The position numbers and the translations under genes are program-made. The notes under the pieces are model-generated. The model had not been told where the DNA came from. It worked only from the letters and a program-made list of their open reading frames with translations, and did no database searches. From assembly GCA_001515945.1 (NCBI GenBank), contig LOER01000016.1, positions 124,001 through 188,000 on the forward strand: 64,000 bases of DNA. The letters are read 5' to 3'. The DNA comes from Desulfitibacter sp. BRH_c19. GTDB lineage: Bacteria > Bacillota > DSM-16504 > Desulfitibacterales > Desulfitibacteraceae. Below are positions 148-62,300 of the stretch, in pieces (within the stretch, counting starts at the first letter, position 1; every line of letters starts with the position of its first letter).

Positions 148-183
148 AAAAAGGACGATTTAAGGGTAAACTTAAATCGTCCT
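148..183 (-). terminator. Rho-independent terminator downstream of ymxH
   Basis: A perfect 13-bp stem (AGGACGATTTAAG and its complement) closes a 6-base loop. It is followed on the minus strand by TTTTT. It ends the ymxH transcript before dapB. Confidence 0.85.
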
Positions 184-289
184 AATAATAAATTTTAAAG
201 GTTAAGTTGTTACAAGTCAATTGATATAGCTGTTAAAATCTGTCCAAAGCTAACATTTTTCTTATTAGCAATAATTCTATTATGAATTA

Positions 290-556
290 TCATGAATTAA
301 GCTTCATTTTATGATAAGTTCTGTCTAGCTCAACAATTATTACCTGGTCACCAATCTTCTTAATAGCTTCCCATGGAATTGTAAGGGTACTTCTTTCTCC
401 AAAAACCCTTAAAAAACCATTGGGGTTTGGCAATAAAATACTATCAACGAAACCGCTATCTCTATCTATCATTAAATCAGAATCTCCTATAGTACCAAGT
501 CTTGCCCCATCATAAATATTTATTATTTCTTTACCTAATAAGTCACTTAGTTTCAT
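290..556 (-). CDS. ymxH: YlmC/YmxH family PRC-barrel sporulation-associated protein
   Basis: This 88-residue protein has the family signature: an N-terminal LxDLxGKEIINIYDGARLG-type stretch, then IPWEAIKKIGDQVIIV near residues 58-75. PRC-barrel proteins of this group are small cytoplasmic proteins linked to sporulation in Bacillus and Clostridia, but their biochemical role is not established. The start is ATG with a GAGGTGG ribosome-binding site. It follows a small membrane-protein gene by 4 bases and is probably co-transcribed with it. A strong terminator lies downstream. Confidence 0.85.
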   Translation of the reverse strand: MKLSDLLGKEIINIYDGARLGTIGDSDLMIDRDSGFVDSILLPNPNGFLRVFGERSTLTIPWEAIKKIGDQVIIVELDRTYHKMKLNS

Positions 557-560
557 TATT

Positions 561-893
561 TTACCACCTCTTTGTAATTTTTTTAAATATCTTTAAAATA
601 AATGGTTGTGCCAAAGTTAGTATAAGTGCTATTCCAGCAATAGTATCAATCTCAACGGAAACTAATTTCATTTTTGAGGGCAATTCTAACCCTAAAAAAG
701 TAGTTAACATAAGTAAAGAGAGATACACACCTCCTGCGATTGCCACTAATTCGGCTAAAGCTTGGGAAACTGGACTAGATTTTATTTCTTCAGGAATACC
801 AGATGCTGATGAGGTTCTTACCTTATGCTTTACTTTTTCACGGACTGCAAAGCCAATTAAAACTACTATCAGTAACAATACAAATATTTTCAT
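561..893 (-). CDS. Small membrane protein of unknown function
   Basis: This is a 110-residue protein that I do not recognise. It has three hydrophobic stretches: residues 2-17, about 47-67 and about 83-100. A charged region rich in Lys, Ser and Glu lies between the first two. It ends in a basic tail. The ATG is preceded by a GGGGGC stretch. It sits directly upstream of ymxH with a 4-base gap, which suggests an operon. The plus-strand frame over the same DNA shows no family features and is treated as a shadow. Confidence 0.65.
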   Translation of the reverse strand: MKIFVLLLIVVLIGFAVREKVKHKVRTSSASGIPEEIKSSPVSQALAELVAIAGGVYLSLLMLTTFLGLELPSKMKLVSVEIDTIAGIALILTLAQPFILKIFKKITKRW

Positions 894-964
894 ATATAGC
901 CCCCCACAAATATACTTTCATTATCGTTTTATGATTGGATAAGCATATATATGACTAAAAATTA

Positions 965-989
965 AACGAGTACATTGTATGCACTCGTT
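965..989 (-). terminator. Terminator downstream of dut
   Basis: Inverted repeat AACGAGT...ACTCGTT with an 11-base loop, followed on the minus strand by TTTAATTTTT. It separates dut from the membrane protein/ymxH pair. Confidence 0.65.
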
Positions 990-1036
990 ATAGAATCAAT
1001 TCAGATAATTAATATGATATACGACTGGTAACAAAA

Positions 1037-1477
1037 CTAAAAGCCTGTATGACCAAATCCTCCTTTGCCCCTATCAGATTTGGACAATTCATCTCCTATT
1101 TCAAAAGTAGCCTTTGCAACAGGAGAAAATACCATTTGAGCTATCCTGTCACCTCTATCTATAGAAAAGGTCTCTTGTCCATGGTTTATTATGATAACCT
1201 TAATTTCACCTCTGTAATCACTATCGATTGTACCTGGACTATTTAGTAGTGTAATTCCCCATTTTAATGCTAGTCCACTTCTAGGCCTTATTTGGGCCTC
1301 ATAACCATTTGGTATCTCAACAGATAATCCAGTAGGCACCAATGCGGTCTTGCCAGGTTCAATTGATAAGCTTTCAGTAACACAAGCATACAGATCCAAA
1401 CCTGCTGATCCAGTAGTCATGTATTCTGGAGGTGGCATGTCCTCATAGGTTAGTTTAATAGATACTTTAATCTTCAT
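1037..1477 (-). CDS. dut: Deoxyuridine 5'-triphosphate nucleotidohydrolase (dUTPase)
   Basis: A 146-residue trimeric dUTPase that hydrolyses dUTP to dUMP and pyrophosphate, keeping uracil out of DNA and supplying dTMP synthesis. All five family motifs are present in order: AGLDLYA (about residue 25), RPRSGLA, the TIDSDYRGE loop with the catalytic Asp, RGDRIAQ, and the C-terminal glycine-rich [10 protein letters not shown] arm. The ATG at 1477 is preferred over upstream in-frame starts because it follows a GGGAG ribosome-binding site and gives the family length. It lies between the M16 peptidase gene and the ymxH pair. Confidence 0.95.
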
Positions 1478-1626
1478 AAACAGTTCTCCCATTATCATAG
1501 TATGAAACTTCTATCAGTAGGTTTTCAACTGATAGTTAGCTAAACTAATCAGGAATTTAGCATCCGTTAAGACCAACTTACGCTGTGAAGTGGGGTATTA
1601 CGGATGGTTGATGCGTGACAAATTAA

Positions 1627-2862
1627 TCACTTTATATCGTTAGGTCCAACAGTTACAAGTGAATACTTGTCAAAATTATTTAAGATCTCAGTTAGCTTGT
1701 ATACATCATCCATTGAAACTTTTATTAGCTTATTTGTAACCTCTTCCGCAGTAATTATTCTACCATATGTAATCATGTTTCTCCCTAACCTGCTCATTCT
1801 GTGACTTACACTTTCCATATTAAGCAAGATGTTACCCTTTAGCTGATTTTTGGACCGCTCTAATTCAGTTAAACTTATCTCCTTACTACTTAAGCATTTA
1901 ATCTGACTATATATCTCATCTAGTATTTTTGCAGCGTTTTTAGGACCTGTTCCTGAATAGATCACAAAAAGCCCCGCATCACTAAAAACAGTCAAGTATG
2001 AATAAATGGAGTAAGCTAACCCCATATCTTCCCTGATGGATTGAAATAATCTTGAAGAAATACCACCTCCTAATAGATTATTAAAAACCATTAAAGAATA
2101 TAAATCATCACTATTTTGATGTAATCCTTTTGTTCCTAAACATAAGTGCATTTGTTCAGTATCTTTAAATTTTGTGTGCTTAACTGGTATGAAATCTGGT
2201 TCAGATTGTAATTTTTTTGTCTCTTTTCTAAGGGTAACTTTTGATAATAATAGATTTAATCTTTCCTCCAACTTCTCATGAGCTAGGTTGCCCGCTGCAC
2301 TTATAACAATATTTTCTGCTAAAAAGAAACTGTGATAGTGATTAATAATGTCCTCCCTATTATAATTGCAAACGGATTCCTTTGTTCCTAGAATTGCTCT
2401 CCCAAGTGGATGCCCATCCCATACTTTTTGTGTAAAAATATCATGAATTATTTCATCTGGTGTATCCTCATACATCATAATCTCTTCACAGACCACATTT
2501 TTTTCTTTTTTGATATCATCATCCTTAAAACATGAATTTAAAATCATATCTGACAATAATTCTGTTGCTAAATCAATGTCATCTTTGAGTACTCTCGCAT
2601 AGATACATGTATATTCTCTACTTGTAAAAGCATTTAAAGAACCACCAACTGTCTCCAATTCTTCAGCAATTTGTTTTGCTGACCTTTGTACTGTACCTTT
2701 AAAAAATAGGTGCTCCATAAAATGAGTGATGCCTTGAAGCCTATTTGTTTCATGCCTCGATCCTATCTTTATCCAAAACCCAATAGAAACCGAATTGGCA
2801 TAGGACATCTCCTCAGTAATTAATCTGATTCCATTTTCTAAATTTGATTGTTTTATCAACAC
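1627..2862 (-). CDS. M16 family zinc peptidase (YmxG/MlpA type)
   Basis: A 411-residue processing-peptidase-like protein. The inverted zinc motif HFMEH is at residues 47-51, with the downstream glutamate-containing EEIMMYED stretch near residues 125-132. The C-terminal M16 half carries the GGGISSRLFQ and YSIYSYL motifs. In Bacillus the equivalent gene (mlpA/ymxG) lies in the same place, downstream of pnp and ylxY, and its product affects regulatory proteases. Both M16 domains are intact. It follows dacF across a strong terminator, so it probably has its own promoter. The substrate is unknown. Confidence 0.9.
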   Translation of the reverse strand: MLIKQSNLENGIRLITEEMSYANSVSIGFWIKIGSRHETNRLQGITHFMEHLFFKGTVQRSAKQIAEELETVGGSLNAFTSREYTCIYARVLKDDIDLATELLSDMILNSCFKDDDIKKEKNVVCEEIMMYEDTPDEIIHDIFTQKVWDGHPLGRAILGTKESVCNYNREDIINHYHSFFLAENIVISAAGNLAHEKLEERLNLLLSKVTLRKETKKLQSEPDFIPVKHTKFKDTEQMHLCLGTKGLHQNSDDLYSLMVFNNLLGGGISSRLFQSIREDMGLAYSIYSYLTVFSDAGLFVIYSGTGPKNAAKILDEIYSQIKCLSSKEISLTELERSKNQLKGNILLNMESVSHRMSRLGRNMITYGRIITAEEVTNKLIKVSMDDVYKLTEILNNFDKYSLVTVGPNDIK

Positions 2863-2932
2863 AATCCTCCCTTTCTAGACATTTATTTCTTTTCAATAAA
2901 AAACCCTGAATACCTTTTTTATACTTAAAATT

Positions 2933-2957
2933 AAAAACTAGGTGCACCTAGTTTTTT
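2933..2957 (-). terminator. Terminator downstream of dacF
   Basis: A palindrome AAAACTAGGTGCACCTAGTTTT begins at the dacF stop codon and is followed by a T-rich run on the minus strand. The symmetry would also allow termination on the other strand. Confidence 0.85.
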
Positions 2958-4062
2958 AAAAATAACCTTTTAGTTTTTCGATAAAGTTGATTTTCTGAAT
3001 TGAGTTTTGTGCCGTGATTGGCACAGATCTTACTTTAATATCATCAATATATACTTCCAGCACACCAACCTCAGTTCCTGCAGCTACTGGAGGGTAAATA
3101 TTATTTTTAAGATTTTTTTTAACTGTTAATGTACTGCCTTTTTGATAAACCTCATTAATATTCTCTGAAAGTCTTAAGTTTAGTAGCTCATTCAATCCAT
3201 ATTTAATGGCAATTTGACCCATAAATGTGTTCTTTGGCAAACTATAACTAACCCAGTTTCCAAATCCATATTCAAATAGGTTGATAACATCTACATATCT
3301 AGCCTTACTACCGAGAACTACAGCTATCAATCCTAAATTATCTTTTTCTGCTGATGCTATCAGACATTGCCCTGCTGCCCTGGTTGTACCTGTTTTAATT
3401 CCGGTTGCATATGGATAATTCCATAATAGCTTATTAGTATTCTTTAGATATCTCCTTTCCCCTGATACAAATTGTAATTGATCTTCTTTAACCTTAACAA
3501 ATTCCGAAAATAAACTATTTTGCATAGAATATCTACCTATTAACGCAAGGTCATATGCAGAAGAAAAGTGCTTTTCATTTGGTAAACCATTTGTGTTATG
3601 AAAAGATGTGTTTTTTGCTCCAAGGATAGCAGCTTTTTTATTCATAATCATTAAAAACACACTCTCACTACCACCAATATGTTCTCCAATTGCATGCGCT
3701 GCATCGTTACCAGATTTAATTAACGCACCCCTAACTAAATCCTCAACATATACTTGCTGATTCTCTTCTAGGTAAATGCTGGCTTCAGATACTCTAGCGG
3801 AATTTTTAGAAATAGTGACAATCTCATCCATGCTAGCAAGTTCCAAACCTAATATTGCTGTCACTACTTTAGTTGTACTTGCAGGATATAAAGGTTGATG
3901 CGAGGCTTTTTCATATAAAATTTTTCCTGTCTTAGCTTCTATGAGTATTGCAGCCTTTGCAGTAACATGAGGTTCCGCTGCTAAAGAAGGTATTGGTAAG
4001 CACACAACAAGGATTATTAGTAAAGATAATCGAAAATATAATTTTAAATGCTGTAATCTCAT
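2956..4062 (-). CDS. dacF: D-alanyl-D-alanine carboxypeptidase (PBP5/DacF family)
   Basis: A 368-residue low-molecular-weight penicillin-binding protein that removes the terminal D-Ala from peptidoglycan stem peptides outside the membrane. A signal peptide covers about residues 1-29, ending SLAA. The serine-peptidase triad of motifs is present: STTK at 62-65, SGN at 117-119 and KTG near residue 222. The PBP5-type beta domain follows, but no obvious C-terminal amphipathic anchor is seen beyond the Lys-rich end. It lies downstream of ylxY with about 30 bases between. DacF is the best paralogue guess; dacB is possible. Confidence 0.9.
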   Translation of the reverse strand: MRLQHLKLYFRLSLLIILVVCLPIPSLAAEPHVTAKAAILIEAKTGKILYEKASHQPLYPASTTKVVTAILGLELASMDEIVTISKNSARVSEASIYLEENQQVYVEDLVRGALIKSGNDAAHAIGEHIGGSESVFLMIMNKKAAILGAKNTSFHNTNGLPNEKHFSSAYDLALIGRYSMQNSLFSEFVKVKEDQLQFVSGERRYLKNTNKLLWNYPYATGIKTGTTRAAGQCLIASAEKDNLGLIAVVLGSKARYVDVINLFEYGFGNWVSYSLPKNTFMGQIAIKYGLNELLNLRLSENINEVYQKGSTLTVKKNLKNNIYPPVAAGTEVGVLEVYIDDIKVRSVPITAQNSIQKINFIEKLKGYF

Positions 4063-4093
4063 TTTTCCAATCCCTTCTTTTTACTGCTATGTT

Positions 4094-4813
4094 TTATAGT
4101 GTATTTGAGACAGTATTTAGCTCATATCCTTTATTTTTTAAAGCTTCAATCATAATCGGAAGTGATCTGGTAGTATTCTCTGTAGGATGCATTAAAACTA
4201 TTGCACCATTTTCGGCATTTTTGATAACTTTATCTGCTATAACTTCGGCAGTTCTATCCTTTTGCCAATCTATCGTATCTATGGTCCAAAAAACAGTCGT
4301 ATATCCTAGCTCACCAGCTGCATCTATTACATGTTGTTTTTTTTCTCCATATGGTGTCGCAAAAAGAGTTGTATCCTTACCAGTTATATCTTTGATTATT
4401 TTTTGTGTTTTAAGTATTTCTTGTTTGTTTTCTTCTTTACTTAGTTGATCTACATGAGGATGGGAGTATCCGTGATTACCAATTTCGTGTCCTTTTTCAG
4501 CAATGAGCTTAATCTTTTCAGGGAATCTACTTGCCCACTTTCCAGTAGGAAAAAATGTTACTTTTACATTTTCTCTTGCAAAAATACCTAAAATTTCTTC
4601 AATATACTCCTCGCCCCAATCAATATTAATTGTGAGTGCGATAGCTTTTTTGCTAGTATCTCCTTGATATATTGGTTTATATACTGTTTCTGATAATACA
4701 AGCATTTCCTTTTGTTGGTAGAATCCGTATAAACCTATAGTAGCTATTAATAAGCATAAAAAAAGAACTGCTCCTTTGCCAAGTTGCTTTCTACTAACAT
4801 ATCCAATATACAT
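4094..4813 (-). CDS. ylxY: Polysaccharide deacetylase-like protein, YlxY family
   Basis: A 239-residue membrane-anchored NodB-fold protein with a hydrophobic segment at about residues 13-31. The second metal motif is present as NHGYSHP, and the motif 4 and 5 equivalents FWTIDTIDW and LMHPT are also there. The usual TFDDG is replaced by INIDWG, and the usual RxPYG reads ATPYG, without the arginine. This degenerate pattern, and the position next to pnp, fit YlxY, a sporulation-associated relative of PdaA/PdaB. Catalytic activity is therefore doubtful. It is probably transcribed separately from pnp, because a terminator lies upstream. Confidence 0.85.
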   Translation of the reverse strand: MYIGYVSRKQLGKGAVLFLCLLIATIGLYGFYQQKEMLVLSETVYKPIYQGDTSKKAIALTINIDWGEEYIEEILGIFARENVKVTFFPTGKWASRFPEKIKLIAEKGHEIGNHGYSHPHVDQLSKEENKQEILKTQKIIKDITGKDTTLFATPYGEKKQHVIDAAGELGYTTVFWTIDTIDWQKDRTAEVIADKVIKNAENGAIVLMHPTENTTRSLPIMIEALKNKGYELNTVSNTL

Positions 4814-4895
4814 CTGTTAACCCTCCCAATTATATAAAGTAGAAGTTTCACCTATAAAAATATATTCTGTTTGCAATCAGATATTCTAGAATGTA

Positions 4896-4931
4896 ATAAA
4901 AAAACCATAAACCCCATTTAGGCTTATGGTT
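4896..4931 (-). terminator. Terminator downstream of pnp
   Basis: Stem AACCATAA/TTATGGTT around a 13-base loop, followed on the minus strand by seven T residues. It lies just after the pnp stop codon. Confidence 0.85.
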
Positions 4932-4936
4932 AATTA

Positions 4937-7174
4937 TTAACTTCTATCTCGTGAAAAGGATTTTTTCCTCGGTCTTTCGTTCTTTTCAGAATTATCGTTG
5001 TTGCTCTCATAACCAGGTAGAGCTTCCTTACGGGACAGTTTCAACCTACCCTGTTGGTCAAAACTAATTGCCTTAACCATTACTTGCTCTCCTTCTTTAA
5101 CTATATCCTCAACTTTTTCTACTCGTTTTACATCTAATTGTGAAATATGCACTAAACCTTCTTTTCCTGGAAGTCCTAATACTCCTTCTATTACCTCTAC
5201 AAATGCCCCGAAATCAGTAACTCTTGTTACTTTACCCATATATATTTTTCCAATTTCAACATCTTGAGTTAACGCAGTAATCAACTTTTGAGCATTTTCA
5301 CCTGCTTTTCCATCTATAGCTGCAACAAAGACTGTACCATCGTCCTCAATATCTATCTTAGCACCAGTTTGCTCCACAATCTTTTTGATAATTTTTCCGC
5401 CAGGTCCAATTATGTCACGAATTTTGTCAGGGTCAACTTGCATACGTACTATTCTTGGTGAATAGGGCGATAATTCAGCTCTTGGTTCAGATAATACCTC
5501 CAACATCTTTCCAAGTATATGTAGGCGTCCTTCTTTTGCCTGGTCTAGTGCTCCTTTTAAAATTGCAACATCAATACCAGCTACTTTAATATCCATCTGC
5601 AGAGCAGTAATACCTTCTTTGGTGCCAGCAACTTTAAAATCCATATCGCCTAAGGCATCTTCAACACCTTGAATGTCTGAAAGAACCTCGACTTTATCAT
5701 CTTCTTTAACTAGCCCCATAGCTATCCCAGCTACAGGAGCTTTAATTGGTACACCTGCATCCATTAGACTTAAGGTGCTTCCACAAACACTACCCATAGA
5801 GGTAGATCCATTAGATCCAATTACTTCAGACACCACTCTAATTGTATATGGAAAGCTGTCTTCAGTTGGGATTACAGCTTCTAACGCTTTCTCGGCTAGT
5901 GCACCATGGCCAATCTCCCTCCTACCAGGACCCCGCATAAACCTCGCTTCTCCAACACTATATGGTGGGAAATTATAGTGATGCATATATCTTTTAGATT
6001 CTTCAACACCTAGACCATCAAGAACCTGTTCATCTCTTACTGCTCCCAAAGTCGCAACTGTTAATACCTGTGTTTCTCCTCTATTAAATAGGCCAGTTCC
6101 ATGTGTTCTAGCTAATAGTCCTACTTCACAGCTTATGGGTCTTATTTCATTTATTTTTCTACCATCTATTCTTATTCCTGTTTCTAGCATTGCTGTTCTC
6201 AGTACTTTTTTCTCAATTTTACCCATTAATTGCTTAATACTTTTTAGAAGGTTTGGATTTTCTAATAGTTCCTCTGCAAAAATATCCTGCAGTTTTTCAA
6301 TAATTTGCTTCTTTACTTCTTTTGTTTGTTTTTCCCGAATAGCTTTCTCCCATGGAATTGATGAGGCATTTTCAAATAATTCCTTTATTTTAGGAAGAGC
6401 AATTTCTTCAACCTTAGACTTAACTTCATCACTAGGCTGCTCAATTTCGACCTTCTGCTTTTCTGTAACTAGGCCCATTTCCTGTGCTTCATTCTTGAAT
6501 TTCTCTATAAAGCCAATAATATCCTTGATACATAAATGAGCTTTTTCCATAGCTTCTAAAATTATTTCTTCTCCTACTTCCTTACTTTTTGATTCAACCA
6601 TCATAATTCCGTCCTTAGTTCCGGCCACCACTAAATGTAATACGCTGTTCTCAGTTTCATTTAATGATGGGTTAACTACAACTTGTCCATTGACATAGCC
6701 AACTGAAACAGCCGCAATCGGTCCTAAAAAAGGTATTTTTGAAATTGTCAATGCTACTGATGCTCCAATGATTGCAGTAATATCAGGTGGGCAATCCTGA
6801 TCTACACTTAGAACAGTAGTAACAATTTGAACATCATTTCGATAACCTTCTGGGAAGAGGGGTCTGATTGGTCTATCAATCAACCTACTGCTTAAGATTG
6901 CTTTTTCACTAGGTCTTCCCTCTCTTTTTATAAATCCTCCTGGTATTTTGCCAACTGCATATAATCTTTCTTCATAGTCAACAGTTAATGGGAAAAAATC
7001 AATACCTTCCCTAGGTTCATCTGAAGCTGTTGCTGCTGCGAGTACAGTAGTATCGTTAAATTTAACCAAAACTGAACCACTAGCTTGTTTCGCCAACTTT
7101 CCTGTTTGTAGCGTTAGTGTCTTACCACCGCCTAAATCTAACGCTTTTTCTAAAAATAGATTTTCTGTTGCCAT
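4937..7174 (-). CDS. pnp: Polyribonucleotide nucleotidyltransferase (PNPase)
   Basis: A 745-residue 3'-5' phosphorolytic exoribonuclease that degrades RNA in the cytoplasm and acts in mRNA turnover. Two RNase PH-like domains are visible, the first with GRPSEKAIL and [10 protein letters not shown], the second with RGETQVLTV and [19 protein letters not shown] domain ([10 protein letters not shown]) and an S1 domain ([15 protein letters not shown]) follow, then a basic Ser/Arg-rich tail. The length is normal for the family. The start has an AAGGAGGT ribosome-binding site. It follows rpsO, as in most bacteria, with a terminator-like hairpin between them. Confidence 0.97.
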
Positions 7175-49863: not shown

Positions 49864-50517
49864 ATGACAAATAGTATGATGAAATACGCAGAGATTGAGA
49901 GCCTTGTCTTTGCCAATGGTAGGGATATTACTACATTTCCAGTAGACGTTTTTGAAGTAGTTAAAAAACTCAAGTTGGATAAACCTGTTGAAGTAATTAA
50001 GACCCAAATGCCTAATTGCATTGGGGGCTATACTCGAAAGGAGAAAAATGGATATTATATCATGATCAACGAAAGGCATTTACACAGAAGACAAAGGTTT
50101 TCTGTTGCTCATGAAATAGGCCATCTTTATTTTAAACATAAAGAAGCATCTATACATTCTTGGAATTATTGGGATATTCATGATAACCTTCAAGAGAATC
50201 AAGCAAATGAGTTTGCGGCCAGACTTTTAATGCCGGCTACTGAGATGTATCAGCTTTCAAATATTTACAATAGATACACTTTAAAACTACTAGAGCAAAT
50301 TCAAGTGTTTTTTGATGTTTCATTATCTGCTACAGCCCGTAGAGTTACTTCTTTGGGTATTATTGAAGGTTCTATTATATTAAAAGATGGGAAAAAGACT
50401 TGTTTTTCCTACTCATCCCCTCACTTTCCTACTGAATCAAATTATAAGACCAAGTATAAAAGGAAGCTTTCAAGTGGAAAGACTCTTTATATTTTGGTTG
50501 CTGAGAGCTGGGGTTAA
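49864..50517 (+). CDS. ImmA/IrrE family metallo-endopeptidase
   Basis: A 217-residue M78 peptidase. The zinc motif HEIGH is at residues 83-87 (RFSVAHEIGHLYFKH), and the third ligand probably lies in NQANEFAARLLMP. ImmA-type proteins cleave the element repressor when cells are stressed, releasing excision genes. GAGGTG precedes the ATG. A truncated second copy of its last 35 codons lies at 54.15 kb, beyond a restriction-like block and an IS30 remnant. Confidence 0.88.
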   Translation: MTNSMMKYAEIESLVFANGRDITTFPVDVFEVVKKLKLDKPVEVIKTQMPNCIGGYTRKEKNGYYIMINERHLHRRQRFSVAHEIGHLYFKHKEASIHSWNYWDIHDNLQENQANEFAARLLMPATEMYQLSNIYNRYTLKLLEQIQVFFDVSLSATARRVTSLGIIEGSIILKDGKKTCFSYSSPHFPTESNYKTKYKRKLSSGKTLYILVAESWG

Positions 50518-50660: not shown

Positions 50661-51773
50661 TTATTTGTTTGATTTACGGCGGTTGCAGTCGAGGCAGAGC
50701 ATTTGACAGTTTTCGGCGGTTGTCCTGCCGCCCTGGCTCCACGGCGTTATATGGTCTGCTTCCATTTCTGATAGCTCAAAATGCTTGTCACATTTTGAGC
50801 AAATCCCCTTTTGCCGTTCATAGGCTTCACGCTTTTGGTTTTCGGTAAAAGCACGAATACTGAGGTGCTTCTCCTCACCAGTCAAAATATAGGTGTAAAT
50901 GCCTTTTTTGTTTGAAATATCATCATCCAGCATAAGTGAAGATATGCGGCTTTCGAGTTTGTCTGGGTCTAATTCAGCGTCTTTATAATCGTTATACAGA
51001 TAGCCCCATTCAACGCCTTTCATCTCTCTACGCTTTACGGGGAAAATAGTTTGGACCCAGTCAATGACTCGCCTAAAATAAATCCATAACTGATTTGCGT
51101 TTTCATCTTTTTGGTGGAGTGCCATGTACTCCTCAATGGTATCAAGCCCGTCACGTGCGGCAATCCATTTGATACCTGTTTCAAGATATTCCTGCCGAAT
51201 AGGTGATCCACTCATATAATCTTTCGCCATATCTTTTGCAGTACAATTCGGCTTTGACAGGTAAGTTTTTGCGTCGGAAAGCCAAGTTCCGGTATATGCG
51301 GTATTGCGTAATTCCTGCTCTGAGAGACGCACACCCGCAATATTTATTACCTTAAACCATGAAAGCACTTCTGACGGTGTACCGTCGCATATATAAATAT
51401 CAAGCACATAATCCAATATGGCTTCTTGCTCATCGTTTTCAAGATTGAAGTAATATCTATAATCAACGGCAAATGTGCGTTCGCTTTCTGCGGCATACCT
51501 GCAAATTGAAATAGTGCGTTGCTGCCCGTCCATTAGTTCGTAATGATCATCGTCTACCTTTGACCAATACATAACATTGACCGGGAACCCTTTCATAACC
51601 GAGCGGATAACCTCATCACGGTCTTTGCCCGAATAGATATATTCGCGCTGATAAGCGGGGCGTACGTCAAGTTTGCCGCTATAAGCGACAACGCCTTCAA
51701 TCCCGTTTTGCCCTTTTTCTTCATAGCCTGCAATAAGTTCTCTGATAGTAACTTGTCTGCGATCAATATTCAC
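50661..51773 (-). CDS. DUF262 and HNH nuclease domain protein (GmrSD-like)
   Basis: A 370-residue protein. The DUF262 half has RPAYQRE at 38-44 and the nucleotide-site motif DGQQRT at 82-87. The C-terminal HNH nuclease has ICSKCDKHFELSEMEADHI, then WSQGGRTTAENCQMLCLDCNRRK (residues about 327-368), with paired cysteines. Related GmrSD enzymes are NTP-dependent restriction enzymes for modified DNA. It lies three bases after an EcoRI-type methyltransferase gene, so the two probably form one restriction or defence unit. Higher G+C than the neighbours suggests separate transfer. Confidence 0.85.
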   Translation of the reverse strand: MNIDRRQVTIRELIAGYEEKGQNGIEGVVAYSGKLDVRPAYQREYIYSGKDRDEVIRSVMKGFPVNVMYWSKVDDDHYELMDGQQRTISICRYAAESERTFAVDYRYYFNLENDEQEAILDYVLDIYICDGTPSEVLSWFKVINIAGVRLSEQELRNTAYTGTWLSDAKTYLSKPNCTAKDMAKDYMSGSPIRQEYLETGIKWIAARDGLDTIEEYMALHQKDENANQLWIYFRRVIDWVQTIFPVKRREMKGVEWGYLYNDYKDAELDPDKLESRISSLMLDDDISNKKGIYTYILTGEEKHLSIRAFTENQKREAYERQKGICSKCDKHFELSEMEADHITPWSQGGRTTAENCQMLCLDCNRRKSNK

Positions 51774-51776
51774 AGG

Positions 51777-52784
51777 TTATTCACCCGCCTTTTCTGGCCG
51801 TCTATTCCGTATGGCAATACGCGTATATTTGGCCTTTCCGTTTACAATCGGCACAGCTAAATCAAATTTATTATCGCAACCATGTCTGAATTCACCAACA
51901 ATTTCAAATTGCTCATTACAATGGTATGCCAAGAAAGTAATCGGAACCCCAATGACTTTATCTGTATCCATTGGTATCTCATTATAACGCCCACATTCAA
52001 TCGCTTCATATGTATCGTATGTCGGGTATTTTTCCGGGGTATATCGCTTAAATAAATTAAGCGGCTGATGGCGTTTCTGAATATCCATGTTCGTAAACCA
52101 ACAGCAGTTACCCATACGTCTCCACTTCTGCCCAGTTTCATCAATCTTAAAATCTGTCTTTTTTTCTTCGTAATAGTCTGGCACCTTAAACCAAAAGTGA
52201 CCACTATTGTGCCCGAGCCATACTTTGTTTTCCTTAAAATACACAAATGTTTCATTAAACGTGGCGTGATTAATATTCCCAAGAATTAGAAATTGCTTCC
52301 CGCTATTAACCATAAGCGGTAAATACTCTTTCATAAGCGAAAACGGCGGATTAGTTACGACAATATCACAGTCCTGAAGCAGTTCCAAACATTCCGGCGA
52401 ACGAAAGTCACCGTTCTGTTTCAATGGGGTTTTCACAACATTAAGGCGGTTATTTTTTTCGTCGTTGTTACTGTGATCTACTAACTCTAATTTATATGTT
52501 GGCTTGTTCGGGTCGTAGTGAGTAGCGATTAGTTTTTTGATACCAAGCTGTTCAAAGTTTAATTGAAAGTATCTAAAAAAATTACTTGTATAACCGCCAA
52601 GCCCGTCACCGAAATGGTCTTGTCCATCTTCGCCATATGCCGGGTCGTCTGCGTTGCAAAAAATAGTTTTGTCCTTGAAATATTCACGGTAATGACGGAG
52701 TTCATCTTCTATTGTCGGAAGCTGGGTATAAAATTCATCTGTTTTACCTGCTCTTGATACATGTAAATTACTATTACCTACCAT
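51777..52784 (-). CDS. EcoRI-family adenine-specific DNA methyltransferase
   Basis: A 335-residue methyltransferase of the M.EcoRI family. The start GNSNLHVSRAGKTDEFYTQL, FCNADDPAYGE near residues 42-52 and the catalytic NPPFS at 145-149 match that family, which methylates adenine in a short DNA site. ATG 52784 has AGGGGG seven bases ahead and gives the normal N-terminus; upstream frame is leader. No EcoRI-type endonuclease is present; a DUF262-HNH protein follows instead. It may protect host DNA from that partner. Confidence 0.88.
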   Translation of the reverse strand: MVGNSNLHVSRAGKTDEFYTQLPTIEDELRHYREYFKDKTIFCNADDPAYGEDGQDHFGDGLGGYTSNFFRYFQLNFEQLGIKKLIATHYDPNKPTYKLELVDHSNNDEKNNRLNVVKTPLKQNGDFRSPECLELLQDCDIVVTNPPFSLMKEYLPLMVNSGKQFLILGNINHATFNETFVYFKENKVWLGHNSGHFWFKVPDYYEEKKTDFKIDETGQKWRRMGNCCWFTNMDIQKRHQPLNLFKRYTPEKYPTYDTYEAIECGRYNEIPMDTDKVIGVPITFLAYHCNEQFEIVGEFRHGCDNKFDLAVPIVNGKAKYTRIAIRNRRPEKAGE

Positions 52785-52923
52785 TACTTTCCCCCTACAA
52801 TCGACATTGCGACCATTATTCTTACACAATAATTGCTTAATCCACAATTATTGCCCGCATGGATATAAAAACACATGAAAATTATAGCATAATCAGTCTG
52901 TTATCACAATGAATAGCTGTGAA

Positions 52924-53085: not shown

Positions 53086-54140
53086 TTAGTTAAATATCCT
53101 ATTTTTAAGGTCTGTGCCAACAGACCTTCTGCCTCCGGTGAGGGCAGGGGTTTGGGGACAGAGTCCCCAAGGTTTTCTATAAGCTACTAAAGCTACCATG
53201 TCATTTGCTGATTTATAATTAAATATCCGTCTAGGATAATTGGTCATCCAGTACTCAATTCTCTTTATTGCTGCCTCGCTTATGGTATTCATATCTATAC
53301 CTTTAGGTATAAATCTTCTTACTAATTTATTTGAATTCTCATTTGTGCCTCTTTCCCAAGAACTATATGGATAAGCATAGTATAGCTTCATCCTCTTTTA
53401 TCGGGATTTATTACTGATCTTTCTATTGCTTTAAAATCTAAAAACTCTGTCCCATTATCTACTGTAATAGTTTTGAATTTCCTTCAAAATTATCCTCATT
53501 TATCTCCAGTATATCTAATGCATTACATACTGCTTGTTGAGTCTTATTTGGTATTTTAACTATTATTTCTTGCCTTGTTAGTCTTTCACTTAATACTAGG
53601 AACACAGCACCCTTACCAGCTCTTTTGCCTATGACACAGTCCATCTCCCAATGCCCATACTCTTCTCGTTTCTCTACTTCTTGGGGTATTTCTTCAATGC
53701 TGGTTCCCCTTAGGTTTTTATGCGCTATTTTAGTCTTCCTATACATTCCTTTTTTCTTGTTTTTCTTTACTGGCAAGTCTTTGTTGCTGATGTTGGCAAA
53801 GACACCCTTATCTATATAGTTGTATAACGTCTTGGTGCAAATACAACTCTTAAATACCATTTCTTTAACTTTAATTTCTCCAATTACTGCATCTGGTGAA
53901 TACTTTTCCTTTATTATCTTATCTTCTATATGCTTAGCCAATTTATGATCATAGCCTATTTTTAACGTTGGACCCTTATTCTGTGCATTTTTATCATACC
54001 TAGCTTGGGCTATATCTGCACAGTACTCGTCTCTATAGGTTAAATTGCTATTTAGAAGCTTTATTTTGCCTCTGGAGATCTCTCTTTCTATGGTTCTTCT
54101 ATCTCGTTGTAAATGATATAGTAAAAGTATACCACTGGGG
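53086..54140 (-). mobile_element. IS30-family transposase remnant (5'-truncated, two frameshifts)
   Basis: The translated pieces read HLQRDRRTIEREISRG (end of the N-terminal helix-turn-helix), then YSPDAVIGEI, HWEMDCVIGKRAGKGA with the first DDE aspartate, ITVDNGTEF with the second, and the C-terminal WERGTNENSNKLVRRFIPKG with the catalytic glutamate. Frameshifts lie near 53460-53485 and near 53395. The N-terminus beyond the helix-turn-helix is missing and joins the immA fragment at about 54140. The element is not functional. Confidence 0.85.
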
Positions 54141-54146
54141 GTGCTT

Positions 54147-54290
54147 CCCTACTGAATCAAATTACAAGACTAAATATAAAAAGAAGCTCTCAAGTGGCAA
54201 GACTCTTTACATTTTGGTTGCTGAGAATTGGGGTACAGGGAGGGTAGTGAAATAAGGATGGTAGAGCCAGCTCTTTCGTATTCGCTTTGC
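54147..54290 (+). pseudogene. 3' fragment of a second ImmA-like peptidase gene (duplicated segment, copy 2)
   Basis: The plus strand encodes PTESNYKTKYKKKLSSGKTL and on to VAENWG, almost identical to the end of the immA product at 50.4-50.5 kb. It then differs by continuing six residues to a stop at 54254. No upstream part of the gene remains; the IS30 remnant begins at its left edge. It marks either a duplication or the fusion of two related elements. Confidence 0.85.
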
Positions 54291-54610: not shown

Positions 54611-54626
54611 ACTAGTAAAGTTGCAT

Positions 54627-54770
54627 CTATTTCTTTTTGCATTTTGCCTGAGCTAATGCAGATCCAGCTAAAGTTTTTGTAGTTTTACTAGTGCGACCGT
54701 CTTTAAGGGCTTTAGAAGCTGCTGTAGCAACCTTTGAACTTGTAGCCTTCTTACAACTTTTTTTAGCCAT
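54627..54770 (-). CDS. Small Lys/Ala/Ser-rich protein
   Basis: A 47-residue basic protein, MAKKSCKKATSSKVATAASK then LKDGRTSKTTK and LAGSALAQ, ending KCKKK. It has an AGGAGGTC ribosome-binding site and its own terminator, so it is very likely expressed. I recall a widespread family of about 50 residues with the same SKVAxxASKxLxDGRTSK...LAGSALSQ pattern in bacteria and mobile elements, without known function. A longer overlapping frame on this strand is out of frame and rejected. Confidence 0.8.
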   Translation of the reverse strand: MAKKSCKKATSSKVATAASKALKDGRTSKTTKTLAGSALAQAKCKKK

Positions 54771-55007
54771 TTTGACCTCCTTGGAGCTCGAACACACAAA
54801 ACGTATGTTCTATTTATGCCTTTATTATACTTAGCCATATTTAACATGTCAAATATTATTTTACAACTTTCTGGTAATGATATTAGTATCTTCATCCGTA
54901 CTATCAAGTAAAACTCAGGTATTACTCTCCTTGTCCTACCCCTTAGCAATAAGCGTGACAGTGTGTAATTTAGGTCGGAGCGTTAGCGTAGCCGCTACAT
55001 GTACTTG

Positions 55008-56108
55008 TTAGGCGATGCCACAATTCTCAATTAATTGTGAGACTATATCTATCTCCGAGCCGATATCTATATTGCCGTTTTTTCTCCATTGGGATTTACC
55101 ACAAGTTTTATGTTCACATACATATTGTGACTTCCTAGGTACTACTCTATAGTCTCTTGCTTTCCAATTATGCAGAAAGAAGTATCCATCAACAATTTGC
55201 CAATTTGGTATCTCACCCAATTTATGCAAGTCTAATAGGAACTCACTTGTCATCTGATATCTCTTGGTAATATCGGGATTAGTAGCAACCCGAATTATTT
55301 TCTTTACTCGTTGAGGTACGTAAATAGGTAAGGTGTTAAGTTTGGTTAGTTGTCCTTTTTTACTACACTTAAATAGAACTTCCTCGATAAATTGCCACTT
55401 TTCAAATTCATCATCCAACTTTTTAAACCTTCTCATTTCTACTTTATTAAACCAAGCTAAAGGATCGTATGGTAGGTGTCCACCCAGTAATTGATAAAGA
55501 ACTAACCCTACTTGATAAAGATCTGACGAATATGTATATATATCTTTCTCAAAAGCCTCCGGTGGTCTATATAGTGCAGCATGTTTTGACCCAGAAACAT
55601 ACTCACCTCCGTCTGGGAGTCTTTTGACTGAGCCAAAATCAGCAATAAGAGGTAGACCTTTTGCATCCAAGAGTATATTTGCAGGTTTTAAATCCCTATG
55701 GAGGATATTATTCGGTTCATTGTGCATAGCCCCTAGGCCGTCAAGAATTCCTCTTGTGATATTTATTGCTTCAATTAAACCAACATTTCTTCCGCCAATA
55801 TGTTCATCTAAATCCCCTATTCCAACCTCTGAAGTAATAAAAAATGCCCATCCATTCCCAACGGTTCTTGCATCCCAAACTTTCATTATATTAGGATGGT
55901 CAATTTTTGCTAATAGCTCAACTTCTGAATTTGCGTCACCTTCATAAAAGTAAAACTTAAGGGCTACCCTTCGTTTAAGTAGGTTATGGAACCCAAAAAA
56001 AACGTAACCATTGCCTCCTTTTTCTGAAAATCCATCAATAGTAATATCACTTAGTCCTCTCACACAATCAATAATTTCAGGTGGTGCATCAATATTTTGA
56101 AAATCCAT
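55008..56108 (-). CDS. Serine/threonine protein kinase (Hanks type)
   Basis: A 366-residue soluble kinase without transmembrane segment. The glycine-rich loop GGNGYVFFG spans 31-39, with the ATP lysine in VALK (Lys51), the catalytic loop HRDLKPAN at 137-144 and DFG at 157-159. The activation segment leads to RPPEAFE. The C-terminal third is unrelated to known sensor domains and ends with a Cys-containing VCEHKTCGKSQWRKNG part. It starts one base after the DUF3010 stop, so the two are tightly coupled. Soluble kinases in elements often act in phage defence. Confidence 0.88.
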   Translation of the reverse strand: MDFQNIDAPPEIIDCVRGLSDITIDGFSEKGGNGYVFFGFHNLLKRRVALKFYFYEGDANSEVELLAKIDHPNIMKVWDARTVGNGWAFFITSEVGIGDLDEHIGGRNVGLIEAINITRGILDGLGAMHNEPNNILHRDLKPANILLDAKGLPLIADFGSVKRLPDGGEYVSGSKHAALYRPPEAFEKDIYTYSSDLYQVGLVLYQLLGGHLPYDPLAWFNKVEMRRFKKLDDEFEKWQFIEEVLFKCSKKGQLTKLNTLPIYVPQRVKKIIRVATNPDITKRYQMTSEFLLDLHKLGEIPNWQIVDGYFFLHNWKARDYRVVPRKSQYVCEHKTCGKSQWRKNGNIDIGSEIDIVSQLIENCGIA

Positions 56109-56109
56109 T

Positions 56110-56526
56110 TTAGTCCTCCAATAGATAATAGGCTACTTTATAAGCCTCATGTTGATATTTAAATAGATTTTTTGGAGTAATGTCGACAGGACACTTTTTT
56201 AGAGCAGCCTTTATCGTTGCTGGGTGAACAATAACAACACGTATATCAATTGTTTGAATGACCCCTTCCAGCTTAAACGAAATAGGTCCCCCACTATATT
56301 GACCTTTTGTTGCACGACCTTTTATTCCTACAACTGAAACACTCTCATTATCAAAATGGTTTAAAATAGCTTGTTTAAAGGAATGAATTTCTGCTTGATT
56401 GTTATGATCCTTAATGTTAATTTTAGTGAAAGATCTAGCTATTGAATGATCCCCTTTTGTCCCATTTAGAGTAACTACAATTGCACACGAACCATCAAAA
56501 CTAATGCCGCAAACTGTTTTTGACAT
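56110..56526 (-). CDS. DUF3010 family protein (RNase H-fold-like)
   Basis: A 138-residue protein matching DUF3010: VCGISFDGSCAIVV at the N-terminus, then KGRATKGQYSGGPISFKLEG at about residues 69-88, VIVHPATIKAALKKCP and YQHEAYKVAYY at the end. The fold resembles RuvC/RNase H proteins. The N-terminal Asp11 and C-terminal Glu could be metal ligands, but that is inference. It is translationally coupled to the downstream kinase gene, so a joint role is likely. Function unknown. Confidence 0.82.
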   Translation of the reverse strand: MSKTVCGISFDGSCAIVVTLNGTKGDHSIARSFTKINIKDHNNQAEIHSFKQAILNHFDNESVSVVGIKGRATKGQYSGGPISFKLEGVIQTIDIRVVIVHPATIKAALKKCPVDITPKNLFKYQHEAYKVAYYLLED

Positions 56527-60119: not shown

Positions 60120-62300
60120 TTATCTCGTATTTAGGCTAACCACTTCATTATATAGTTTAATGAGGTGCTCAATAGTTAAGTCAAGGATTGGTTCATACAT
60201 AAACGAGTTCAAATGGATGTTTGAACTTGCTGTAATGCTAACCTTTTCTAGCGTGCGAATAGCAGGTGCTGATGGAGACAATGATGTAAACTCTTTAATA
60301 AGATATCCAAATTGACTATTGGAACTACACCAGTATTCCGAATCGTTTTTTAGTATTCGAAGCTTTTCAGTCATGAATATCTCGGAATTAATCCGTATCG
60401 CCATACATAGCAATACTTTATTCTCAAGGTTTAATCCATCATGCATATCACTTCTGCAAATTTCATCAGCTTTCTGAAATAATAAATTTTTCAATATACC
60501 TTGATTATTTGTAGAATAATTTGTTCCAAAAAGGCTGTTGTATATGTATAAATAGTCACCAATGGTGATTTCATCAGTATCCTTCTTCCAATGTAGAAGG
60601 CTAGTAAGTTTAATGTAATCAGGGTCGCTTTCACCTTTAGTATATTCAATCAGATTTCTAGAGAATGGAATAGTGGCACATAGAATAATATCACAACGGT
60701 TTATGTTATTTTTCCACTTACCGATAAAGTAGTTTTTTACCCCCTCTGCTTTTGCAAGACAGATAGAAGTGTTATTTTTTATGGTCATTAGGCATCTGTC
60801 ACGATGCACATATGTCGTTGCAAGTGTTCGAAAGAAATCATAGTTGTGAGTTAATATAATCTGATAAAAATACTCGGTATTGGTCAAGTCTCTTAAGTAT
60901 TGAGTGATTGCATGTTTATTCTTGTAGTCAAACGAATCTGCAATATCATCAACCACAAATAGTGTTTCCTGACTATTCAGTTTCCTTGATTCGACTTCAA
61001 AAATGAAGCTAAGAAGATATAAAGCTCGTTTTTCTCCTTGACTAAGTGTTTTTAGTTCAGATCGTGACCATTCAACAGAGTCGTTACCATCTCGGAAAAT
61101 AAATCTTAATTGAGCATTCTCTTTACCAAGTGTAACTTCTGTCTGATTTGCAATAAACAAGGTAAACGGCATATCTACAAAGCGATCATTAAATAGATCT
61201 ACTGCTTGTGTCCATCGGGGAGCTATTTGCGAAGCTTCAGCCTCAATCCTTTGAAGTTCATCTTTGTTTACATTAAATGACCTTAAATATGCCTCAGCAT
61301 CAGGGCTTTTTTGCATATAATAAGACCAAAGATTCTGACGAAACTGGCCTTGATTTTCTGGCTTAAGCTTGTCAAGGAGAAACTCTACTTGTGTATAAGT
61401 TAAGCTCTCAATGAGATCAACTAAAGCATGAGTTTTTGCGTTTTTTGCGAGGTTAATTCTTAGTTTTTTAAGTGTCTCGTCTGTATCGAGCCTTTCCAGA
61501 ATTCGTTTATGCCTCTGATCGAGTTCATCTTGGCTAATTGAAAATTCATCACCTCTGAGGTGAACACGGTGCCCACCCATAAAATATCCTTGTTTTTTTA
61601 ACGTTTCAAATGATGTTTCTGCTTTTGTAGGATTAAAAACACCTTTTGTATAAATTGATCCATCACTATTAAAAAGTTCCTGATAGCGATTATTAAACTC
61701 ATTTGCTTTTAATATAAACTCTTGGCTATTCAGTATCTCTATGGCTTTGGGATCAAAAATGGTTGCATATTCATATGGTTCTAAGTCATCCTCAGCTGAA
61801 TGCTCTAGTGTTTTAGTAATACAAGTAGGAAAATCACTTATATCCCAATCTTTAAGAATGACTTGTTCGATATCATTTTTTTTTACTTTCGATAACTTCT
61901 GAAGGGTGCCTATAAGCTTATTTTTCAACTTATCTAGCTCAATAAGAAGTTCATCGTATCTTGCTTTATGCTCAGGATTAACAAGTATATTTGTTATAGC
62001 AGGGTTTTCGGACTTGATGTCTATTTCTGACTTCAAGACATAAATAGTTTCTTTCGAGATGGGGCTTTCATTTAATTTGATTTTACATGTTGTTGGTCGG
62101 TGATAACGTTCCTCTTTAGGTTGTTCGCCTCTTGAAATATCTTCAAATGTCTTAGTGAAAGAAGTCTTCATCACTCCATTTGGAGCATATATAACGTAAG
62201 CTTTCGCTTTAGGGTTTTCTGTACTTGTAGTAAATACAAAATCTTGCTCGAAATCCTTTATGCCATAGCAGTTCTTTAAGATAACATTTAGCGTACTCAT
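60120..62300 (-). CDS. AAA family ATPase, ABC/SMC-like (AAA_13/RloC-type)
   Basis: A 726-residue ATPase. Walker A is APNGVMKTS at residues 39-47; the ABC signature LSQGEKRALYLLSFIFEVE and the Walker B region LFVVDDIADSFD lie near residues 430-465, followed by the LTHNYDF histidine loop. The intervening part is helical. Layout resembles RloC/PrrC-type and other ATPases that sense phage and activate an effector. The C-terminal 200 residues would be the effector; no known nuclease motif is certain (a CRSDMH sequence is present). ATG follows GAGGG. It stands alone, suggesting a one-gene system. Confidence 0.82.
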   Translation of the reverse strand: MSTLNVILKNCYGIKDFEQDFVFTTSTENPKAKAYVIYAPNGVMKTSFTKTFEDISRGEQPKEERYHRPTTCKIKLNESPISKETIYVLKSEIDIKSENPAITNILVNPEHKARYDELLIELDKLKNKLIGTLQKLSKVKKNDIEQVILKDWDISDFPTCITKTLEHSAEDDLEPYEYATIFDPKAIEILNSQEFILKANEFNNRYQELFNSDGSIYTKGVFNPTKAETSFETLKKQGYFMGGHRVHLRGDEFSISQDELDQRHKRILERLDTDETLKKLRINLAKNAKTHALVDLIESLTYTQVEFLLDKLKPENQGQFRQNLWSYYMQKSPDAEAYLRSFNVNKDELQRIEAEASQIAPRWTQAVDLFNDRFVDMPFTLFIANQTEVTLGKENAQLRFIFRDGNDSVEWSRSELKTLSQGEKRALYLLSFIFEVESRKLNSQETLFVVDDIADSFDYKNKHAITQYLRDLTNTEYFYQIILTHNYDFFRTLATTYVHRDRCLMTIKNNTSICLAKAEGVKNYFIGKWKNNINRCDIILCATIPFSRNLIEYTKGESDPDYIKLTSLLHWKKDTDEITIGDYLYIYNSLFGTNYSTNNQGILKNLLFQKADEICRSDMHDGLNLENKVLLCMAIRINSEIFMTEKLRILKNDSEYWCSSNSQFGYLIKEFTSLSPSAPAIRTLEKVSITASSNIHLNSFMYEPILDLTIEHLIKLYNEVVSLNTR

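Follow-up and report, generated by a model that had tools for sequence, protein, structure and literature searches.

The window, a stretch of 64,000 nucleotides from Desulfitibacter sp. BRH_c19, carries a gene for a DUF3010 protein followed by a gene for a serine/threonine kinase, and together these form a self-contained, horizontally mobile two-gene unit. We think it probable that the pair is a mobile anti-phage module of an abortive or toxin-antitoxin-like kind, with the kinase as effector and a non-cleaving DUF3010 protein as its sensor or regulator. By guilt by association, its function is probably anti-phage.

Both open reading frames lie on the minus strand. The DUF3010 gene comes first (56110 to 56526, 138 amino acids); its product matches Pfam PF11215 (E=1.2e-31; 110 bits, cut-off 25), making it a member of Pfam DUF3010. 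The kinase gene (55008 to 56108, 366 amino acids) follows, with a match to PF00069 across residues 30–287 (E=1.5e-30). Exactly one base separates the two. At this junction (56108 to 56123, minus strand), the ribosome-binding site of the kinase (TTGGAGGACTAAAATG, Shine-Dalgarno motif GGAGGA) overlaps the stop codon of DUF3010, making translational coupling plausible. An earlier note on this DNA had described a kinase coupled to a DUF3010 protein across one base. The adjacency, the coordinates and both family assignments are real, but the kinase is not the lead gene: DUF3010 is upstream and the kinase downstream. DUF3010 is present in a single copy in this genome and is rare in its phylum, occurring in 1 of 399 sampled genomes.

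The kinase is predicted, from its sequence, to be an active enzyme. It has the VAIK lysine (Lys51), HRD aspartate (Asp139) and DFG aspartate (Asp157) of PF00069 kinases, and an alignment of 16 members of its family shows Lys51, Glu62, Asp139 (in HRDLKP), Asn144 and Asp157 to be invariant. The AF2 model (pLDDT 90) consists of a standard kinase and a C-terminal domain of four strands and a helix, which occupies residues ~302–366 (55008 to 55205, minus strand) and contains a Trp303, Leu312 and Tyr320 conserved in the family alignment. As the note had claimed, this end of the protein contains no known domain: residues ~290–366 have no match in Pfam, and neither Pfam nor a PDB sequence search gave a significant relative of the C-terminal domain. 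The domain is confined to the kinase family that is paired with DUF3010.

We searched for the pair from both sides. Searches that used the kinase alone found 21 further loci of the family, and in 21 of 21 a DUF3010 gene or its remnant was the immediate upstream neighbour, at a distance of about -4 to +11 nucleotides. Their hosts are Pseudomonadota, Bacteroidota, one deltaproteobacterium and prophages. A tblastn search with the C-terminal part of the kinase alone gave matches in Cupriavidus pHG1 and a Rhizobium plasmid, both with an unannotated DUF3010-like reading frame directly upstream of the kinase. When 84,980 genomes were scanned with a query made from the C-terminal half of the family kinases, 22 loci came up: 15 were true family kinases, all 15 with DUF3010 directly upstream, damaged copies included; the other seven (L029–L035) were ordinary kinases, mostly with TPR-like tails, that lacked DUF3010 and served as a built-in control. 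Viral contigs added four loci (L013, L086–L088), all paired, and the remaining viral kinases had no DUF3010. On the other side, sampled censuses found DUF3010 above the cut-off in 11 of 369 gammaproteobacterial, 3 of 396 Bacteroidota and 3 of 385 alphaproteobacterial genomes. The gammaproteobacterial copies were mostly solitary, and these unbiased censuses also yielded two new paired loci (L049, L052). Taken together, the two kinds of search indicate that DUF3010 often occurs without the kinase, while the kinase family was not found without a DUF3010 locus. Partner proteins from other loci passed the Pfam DUF3010 cut-off in ten cases of ten. The distance matrices of the two proteins are correlated across 17 pairs (mirror-tree Mantel r=0.81), with none of 5000 permutations as high. 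The conserved co-occurrence proposed as a check in the note is thus borne out by both linkage and congruent trees. No third gene recurred among the neighbours read at 17 loci.

Searches of viruses from the DUF3010 side were empty: the window protein found nothing in a phage genome collection or, as a single query, in a viral scan, and a scan of viruses with an alignment of DUF3010 proteins gave no conserved pattern. Two viral contigs (L091, 5156–6675; L092, 1170–2689) encode a weakly DUF3010-like protein of 161 amino acids, at 15 bits under the Pfam cut-off, whose gene overlaps by 4 nucleotides that of a different kinase of 345 amino acids and adjoins a CI/S24-like repressor. They may represent a distant second class with this gene arrangement, located in phage immunity regions.

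The note had placed the pair in a defence-rich element, and we found this to be so. In the window, a GmrSD_N/HNH type II restriction enzyme (50661 to 51773, minus strand; PADLOC REase_II, E=3e-134) and an EcoRI-type adenine methyltransferase (MTase_II; 51777 to 52847, minus strand; PF13651 E=5e-100 and PADLOC) lie outside the unit on one side, and an AAA-type protein (60120–62300) is a full-length match to the PADLOC candidate PDC-S46 (E=2e-221). Between the pair and the restriction-modification genes, at 53086–53941 and 54144–54243, stand remnants of an IS30-like transposase together with an 87% copy of the terminal part of the M78 peptidase gene at 49864–50517. Just downstream of the kinase we read a small lysine-rich open reading frame of 47 amino acids (MAKKSCKKATSSKVA...; 54624–54770, minus strand), preceded by a perfect TTGACA-17-TATAAT promoter match. 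A Billgrantia locus (L022) has the order seen in the window, DUF3010, kinase, EcoRI-type methyltransferase and GmrSD/HNH restriction enzyme, followed by Gabija. Its proteins are 38–51% identical to those of the window, with DUF3010 too divergent for a BLAST match, and the shared order is thus not a recent copy. We considered a four-gene system with the type II restriction-modification genes as obligatory members and rejected it, because most loci of the pair lack them. The same type II system is present in 50 plasmids, and of the plasmids in the collection no more than a few have any DUF3010. In another Billgrantia locus (L046, 1495–3030), a solitary DUF3010 gene is followed by a restriction-endonuclease-like reading frame.

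Elsewhere the pair keeps similar company. In Chryseobacterium (L018) it is inside a type I restriction-modification operon, flanked on one side by hsdS and on the other by a CBASS cyclase-effector followed by hsdR, and at another locus (L023) it lies directly before hsdR. Near other copies we found a type IIG enzyme (L013), an Mrr-like type IV enzyme with a methyltransferase (L017), IetAS (L010 and L024) and Mza genes (L019). Beyond the loci just described, PADLOC added only a few matches, and several loci gave none; in all, roughly half of the paired loci lack a recognised defence neighbour (L014, L016, L020, L026, L011, L025 and others). The neighbours of generic kinases, our control, gave no PADLOC match at 1e-20 in 42. 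The enrichment near defence genes that the note had asked for is present: about 20 of 116 neighbours at paired loci matched defence genes against 0 of 42 in the control (Fisher p=0.002), the former figure being an approximate hand count because the matching proteins were chosen by reading.

Several of these features are also those of a plain toxin-antitoxin or addiction pair, in which DUF3010 neutralises a toxic kinase and the two stabilise mobile elements with no anti-phage role. The small partner comes first and the putative toxin second, the genes overlap or touch, DUF3010 often lacks the kinase and the kinase never lacks a DUF3010 locus, and the pair travels on plasmids, an integron and prophages. 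Its repeated residence in or beside restriction and other defence systems exceeds what stabilisation would predict, however, and two damaged loci also speak against such a role: DUF3010 has a nonsense codon in L010 (7011–7013) and is split by an IS30-type element in L015 (836–1855), with the kinase intact in both. We therefore judge pure addiction unlikely, although it is compatible with the reading that we favour, as defence is a role of many toxin-antitoxin pairs. The damage was of other kinds elsewhere, with a nonsense codon in the kinase in L014 and both genes broken in L027, where DUF3010 is only a remnant. Within the anti-phage module that we favour, a DUF3010 antitoxin would agree with the order of the genes and with the DUF3010s that stand alone, and a DUF3010 activator with L010 and L015. 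A strict antitoxin role is weakened by those two loci, where polarity may silence the kinase.

The DUF3010 protein has, in its AF2 model (pLDDT 85), the RuvC-like RNase H fold, RuvC being a Holliday-junction resolvase. The best PDB matches found by Foldseek were RuvC structures (7w8d, 7xhj and 4ld0; TM about 0.7), a junction-bound RuvC among them, and phage RuvC proteins matched the model in a viral library. A PDB sequence search gave no significant match. An RNase H-like assignment of DUF3010 was made in 2014, with the remark that the family keeps its active-site residues (PMC3985635). In the window protein, the acids that RuvC uses for catalysis (strand 1, strand 4 and C-terminal helix) are not all retained: Ser9 and Lys70 stand where RuvC has Asp and Glu, a mapping that rests mainly on the fold and strand order, the sequence alignment being weak. 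By hhalign, again with weak scores, the strand-4 Lys/Arg of DUF3010 aligns with the RuvC Glu. The strand-1 position is D or E in all 17 solitary DUF3010s but, among the paired, in only 5 of 17, or 8 of 20 once later loci are counted, whereas strand 4 is K, R or N in nearly all DUF3010s, the solitary included. The paired proteins that keep the strand-1 acid are those of L014, L022, L026, L049 (E by alignment), L052 and L086–L088. On the tree, the state of this residue changed at least three times, with non-acid states in paired copies only; the tree offers too few independent pairs for kinship-corrected statistics of the loss to be significant. Conserved residues of DUF3010 are Glu87, which is invariant, Gly75 and Arg71.

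These observations bear on the suggestion of the note that DUF3010 might be a nuclease or a sensor controlled by phosphorylation. The sensor half survives, as a protein that would be controlled by the kinase or control it. The nuclease half, in which phosphorylation would switch cutting, draws on the RuvC fold, the strand-1 acid of all solitary and some paired members and the invariant Glu87. The K, R or N at strand 4 in nearly the whole family, the recurrent acid changes confined to paired copies and, in the window protein itself, Ser and Lys at the two positions speak against it, and we hold a phosphorylation-switched nuclease to be quite improbable. Because of Ser9 and Lys70, cutting by the window protein is unlikely; we predict it to be non-catalytic and regard a binding or regulatory role as likely. 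Paired DUF3010s that keep the strand-1 acid may still be nucleases. Our non-catalytic reading differs from the 2014 remark, which concerned mostly solitary gammaproteobacterial DUF3010s.

The mobility of the pair as a unit is clearest in a 6.5 kb contig labelled as a Bacteroidia MAG (L021). Here, six attC-like repeats of about 137 nucleotides, with the ends CTAACAAAG...GTCCGTTA, separate short open reading frames (160–5748), and the pair fills the interval between the repeats at 2040–2176 and 3726–3862. Both genes thus make up one integron cassette. Neighbouring cassettes contain a WGR-domain-like and a PIN-like reading frame. The closest kin of this pair are gammaproteobacterial, so the contig may be wrongly binned. 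In Pseudomonas (L020, 6945–8777), the conserved flanks of a site downstream of nrdB enclose the pair and no other cargo. Other species have at this place a CAP12/Pycsar-type TIR gene (L056), an AAA ATPase (L057) or other and unknown reading frames, so that with its conserved, repeat-like flanks it looks like a small hotspot (L020, L056–L070). Prophages carry the pair in three loci (L013, L086, L087): it is near a portal gene in L086 and between the divergent gpO and gpP of a P2-like prophage in L087, with a weak SIR2-like match further on. We also considered a cassette origin for the window copy. Directly past its kinase stop, which itself overlaps GCCTAAC, there is an attC-like left end (54977–55013) consisting of GCCTAACAAG and a GC-rich stretch found nowhere else in the genome; reading the sequence, we recognised no matching right-hand site.

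Such carriage, in prophage, plasmid, integron and island, would also suit a regulator of mobile elements, a kinase that controls whether elements in the same cell are induced, excised or silenced and protects only as a side effect. The remote look-alikes in L091 and L092 touch a phage repressor, and the kinase-kinase-phosphatase (KKP) system, which acts through MvaU, provides a precedent (PMC11341870). The pair also stands in core-gene contexts with no surrounding mobile element (L020, L026, L016), however, and its neighbours are the same as those of stand-alone defence systems, which makes this role very unlikely in our view. That the genes are neighbours by chance, or form a housekeeping pair for signalling, is scarcely credible: nothing beyond the rarity of DUF3010 in the phylum of the window favours it, and the complete linkage across phyla, the congruent trees and the patchy distribution contradict it.

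Kinase-based defence is already known; the kinase-DUF3010 composition is new. The KKP kinases of Pf prophages are toxins that stop phage (PMC11341870). Like the pair, KKP is a mobile multi-gene module, and its Ser/Thr kinase effector blocks phages by its toxicity, but its kinases are two, carry FHA/CSD domains and are joined by a phosphatase that acts as antitoxin, whereas the pair has one kinase, a RuvC-fold partner and no phosphatase. PD-T4-6, an anti-phage protein listed in PADLOC that is itself a Ser/Thr kinase, is similar in its kinase domain (E=4e-28), but it is one gene with another C-terminal part and no DUF3010; its profile covers the kinase domain only, the match ending at residue ~215–296, and the window kinase has an obligate second gene. 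The best PADLOC match of the kinase domain was to Mad6 of MADS (E=5.5e-37), over positions 61–311 only of a 659-position profile and with 80 bits against an NCBIfam cut-off of 460; no other MADS genes are near the window pair. RuvC resolvases share the fold, but the paired DUF3010 family is small (130–140 amino acids), kinase-linked and mobile, and the window member lacks the catalytic acids. Staphylococcal Stk2 is reportedly an abortive-infection kinase and thus a similar effector, but it is not known to have a paired RuvC-fold gene. In EcoprrI, the anticodon nuclease PrrC is encoded between hsdS and hsdR, a position like that of the pair in L018 and, directly before hsdR, in L023, where it could likewise back up restriction; the putative effector of the pair is a kinase, though, and many of its copies have no restriction genes. 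In PADLOC-DB 2.0.0, DUF3010 occurs in none of the families and the kinase is matched by its domain only, never at full length. The statement of the note that no system of this composition had been characterised holds for PADLOC-DB 2.0.0, Pfam, NCBIfam and open papers, the scope of our comparison; nor did we find in the literature a defence system that joins a RuvC/RNase H-like protein to a kinase.

How might such a module work? We infer that its steps are contact between the two proteins, recognition of branched DNA, arrest of growth and protection. DUF3010 would be an obligate partner that probably binds the kinase and, as a sensing or regulatory subunit, would restrain or trigger it on a phage-specific signal, which might be a phage resolvase or the branched DNA of replication or recombination. 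Once released, the kinase would phosphorylate both itself and proteins of the host, and growth would stop before phage release. By analogy with KKP, kinase toxicity could serve as a mode of defence. A more specific version, which we put forward tentatively as a possibility, is that a catalytically dead resolvase fold senses branched phage DNA or recombination proteins and signals shutdown through the kinase, both alone and as a backup to restriction-modification.

If the pair is what we think it is, it would be a widespread, compact family of kinase-based defence with an unusual partner. Since natural copies exist in several phyla, one of them as a single integron cassette, cloning and testing it should be easy. 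DUF3010 has had no known function since 2014 (PMC3985635), and at least its kinase-paired branch would gain a first testable role. Such a role would also suggest that a resolvase fold can be put to new use as a sensor.
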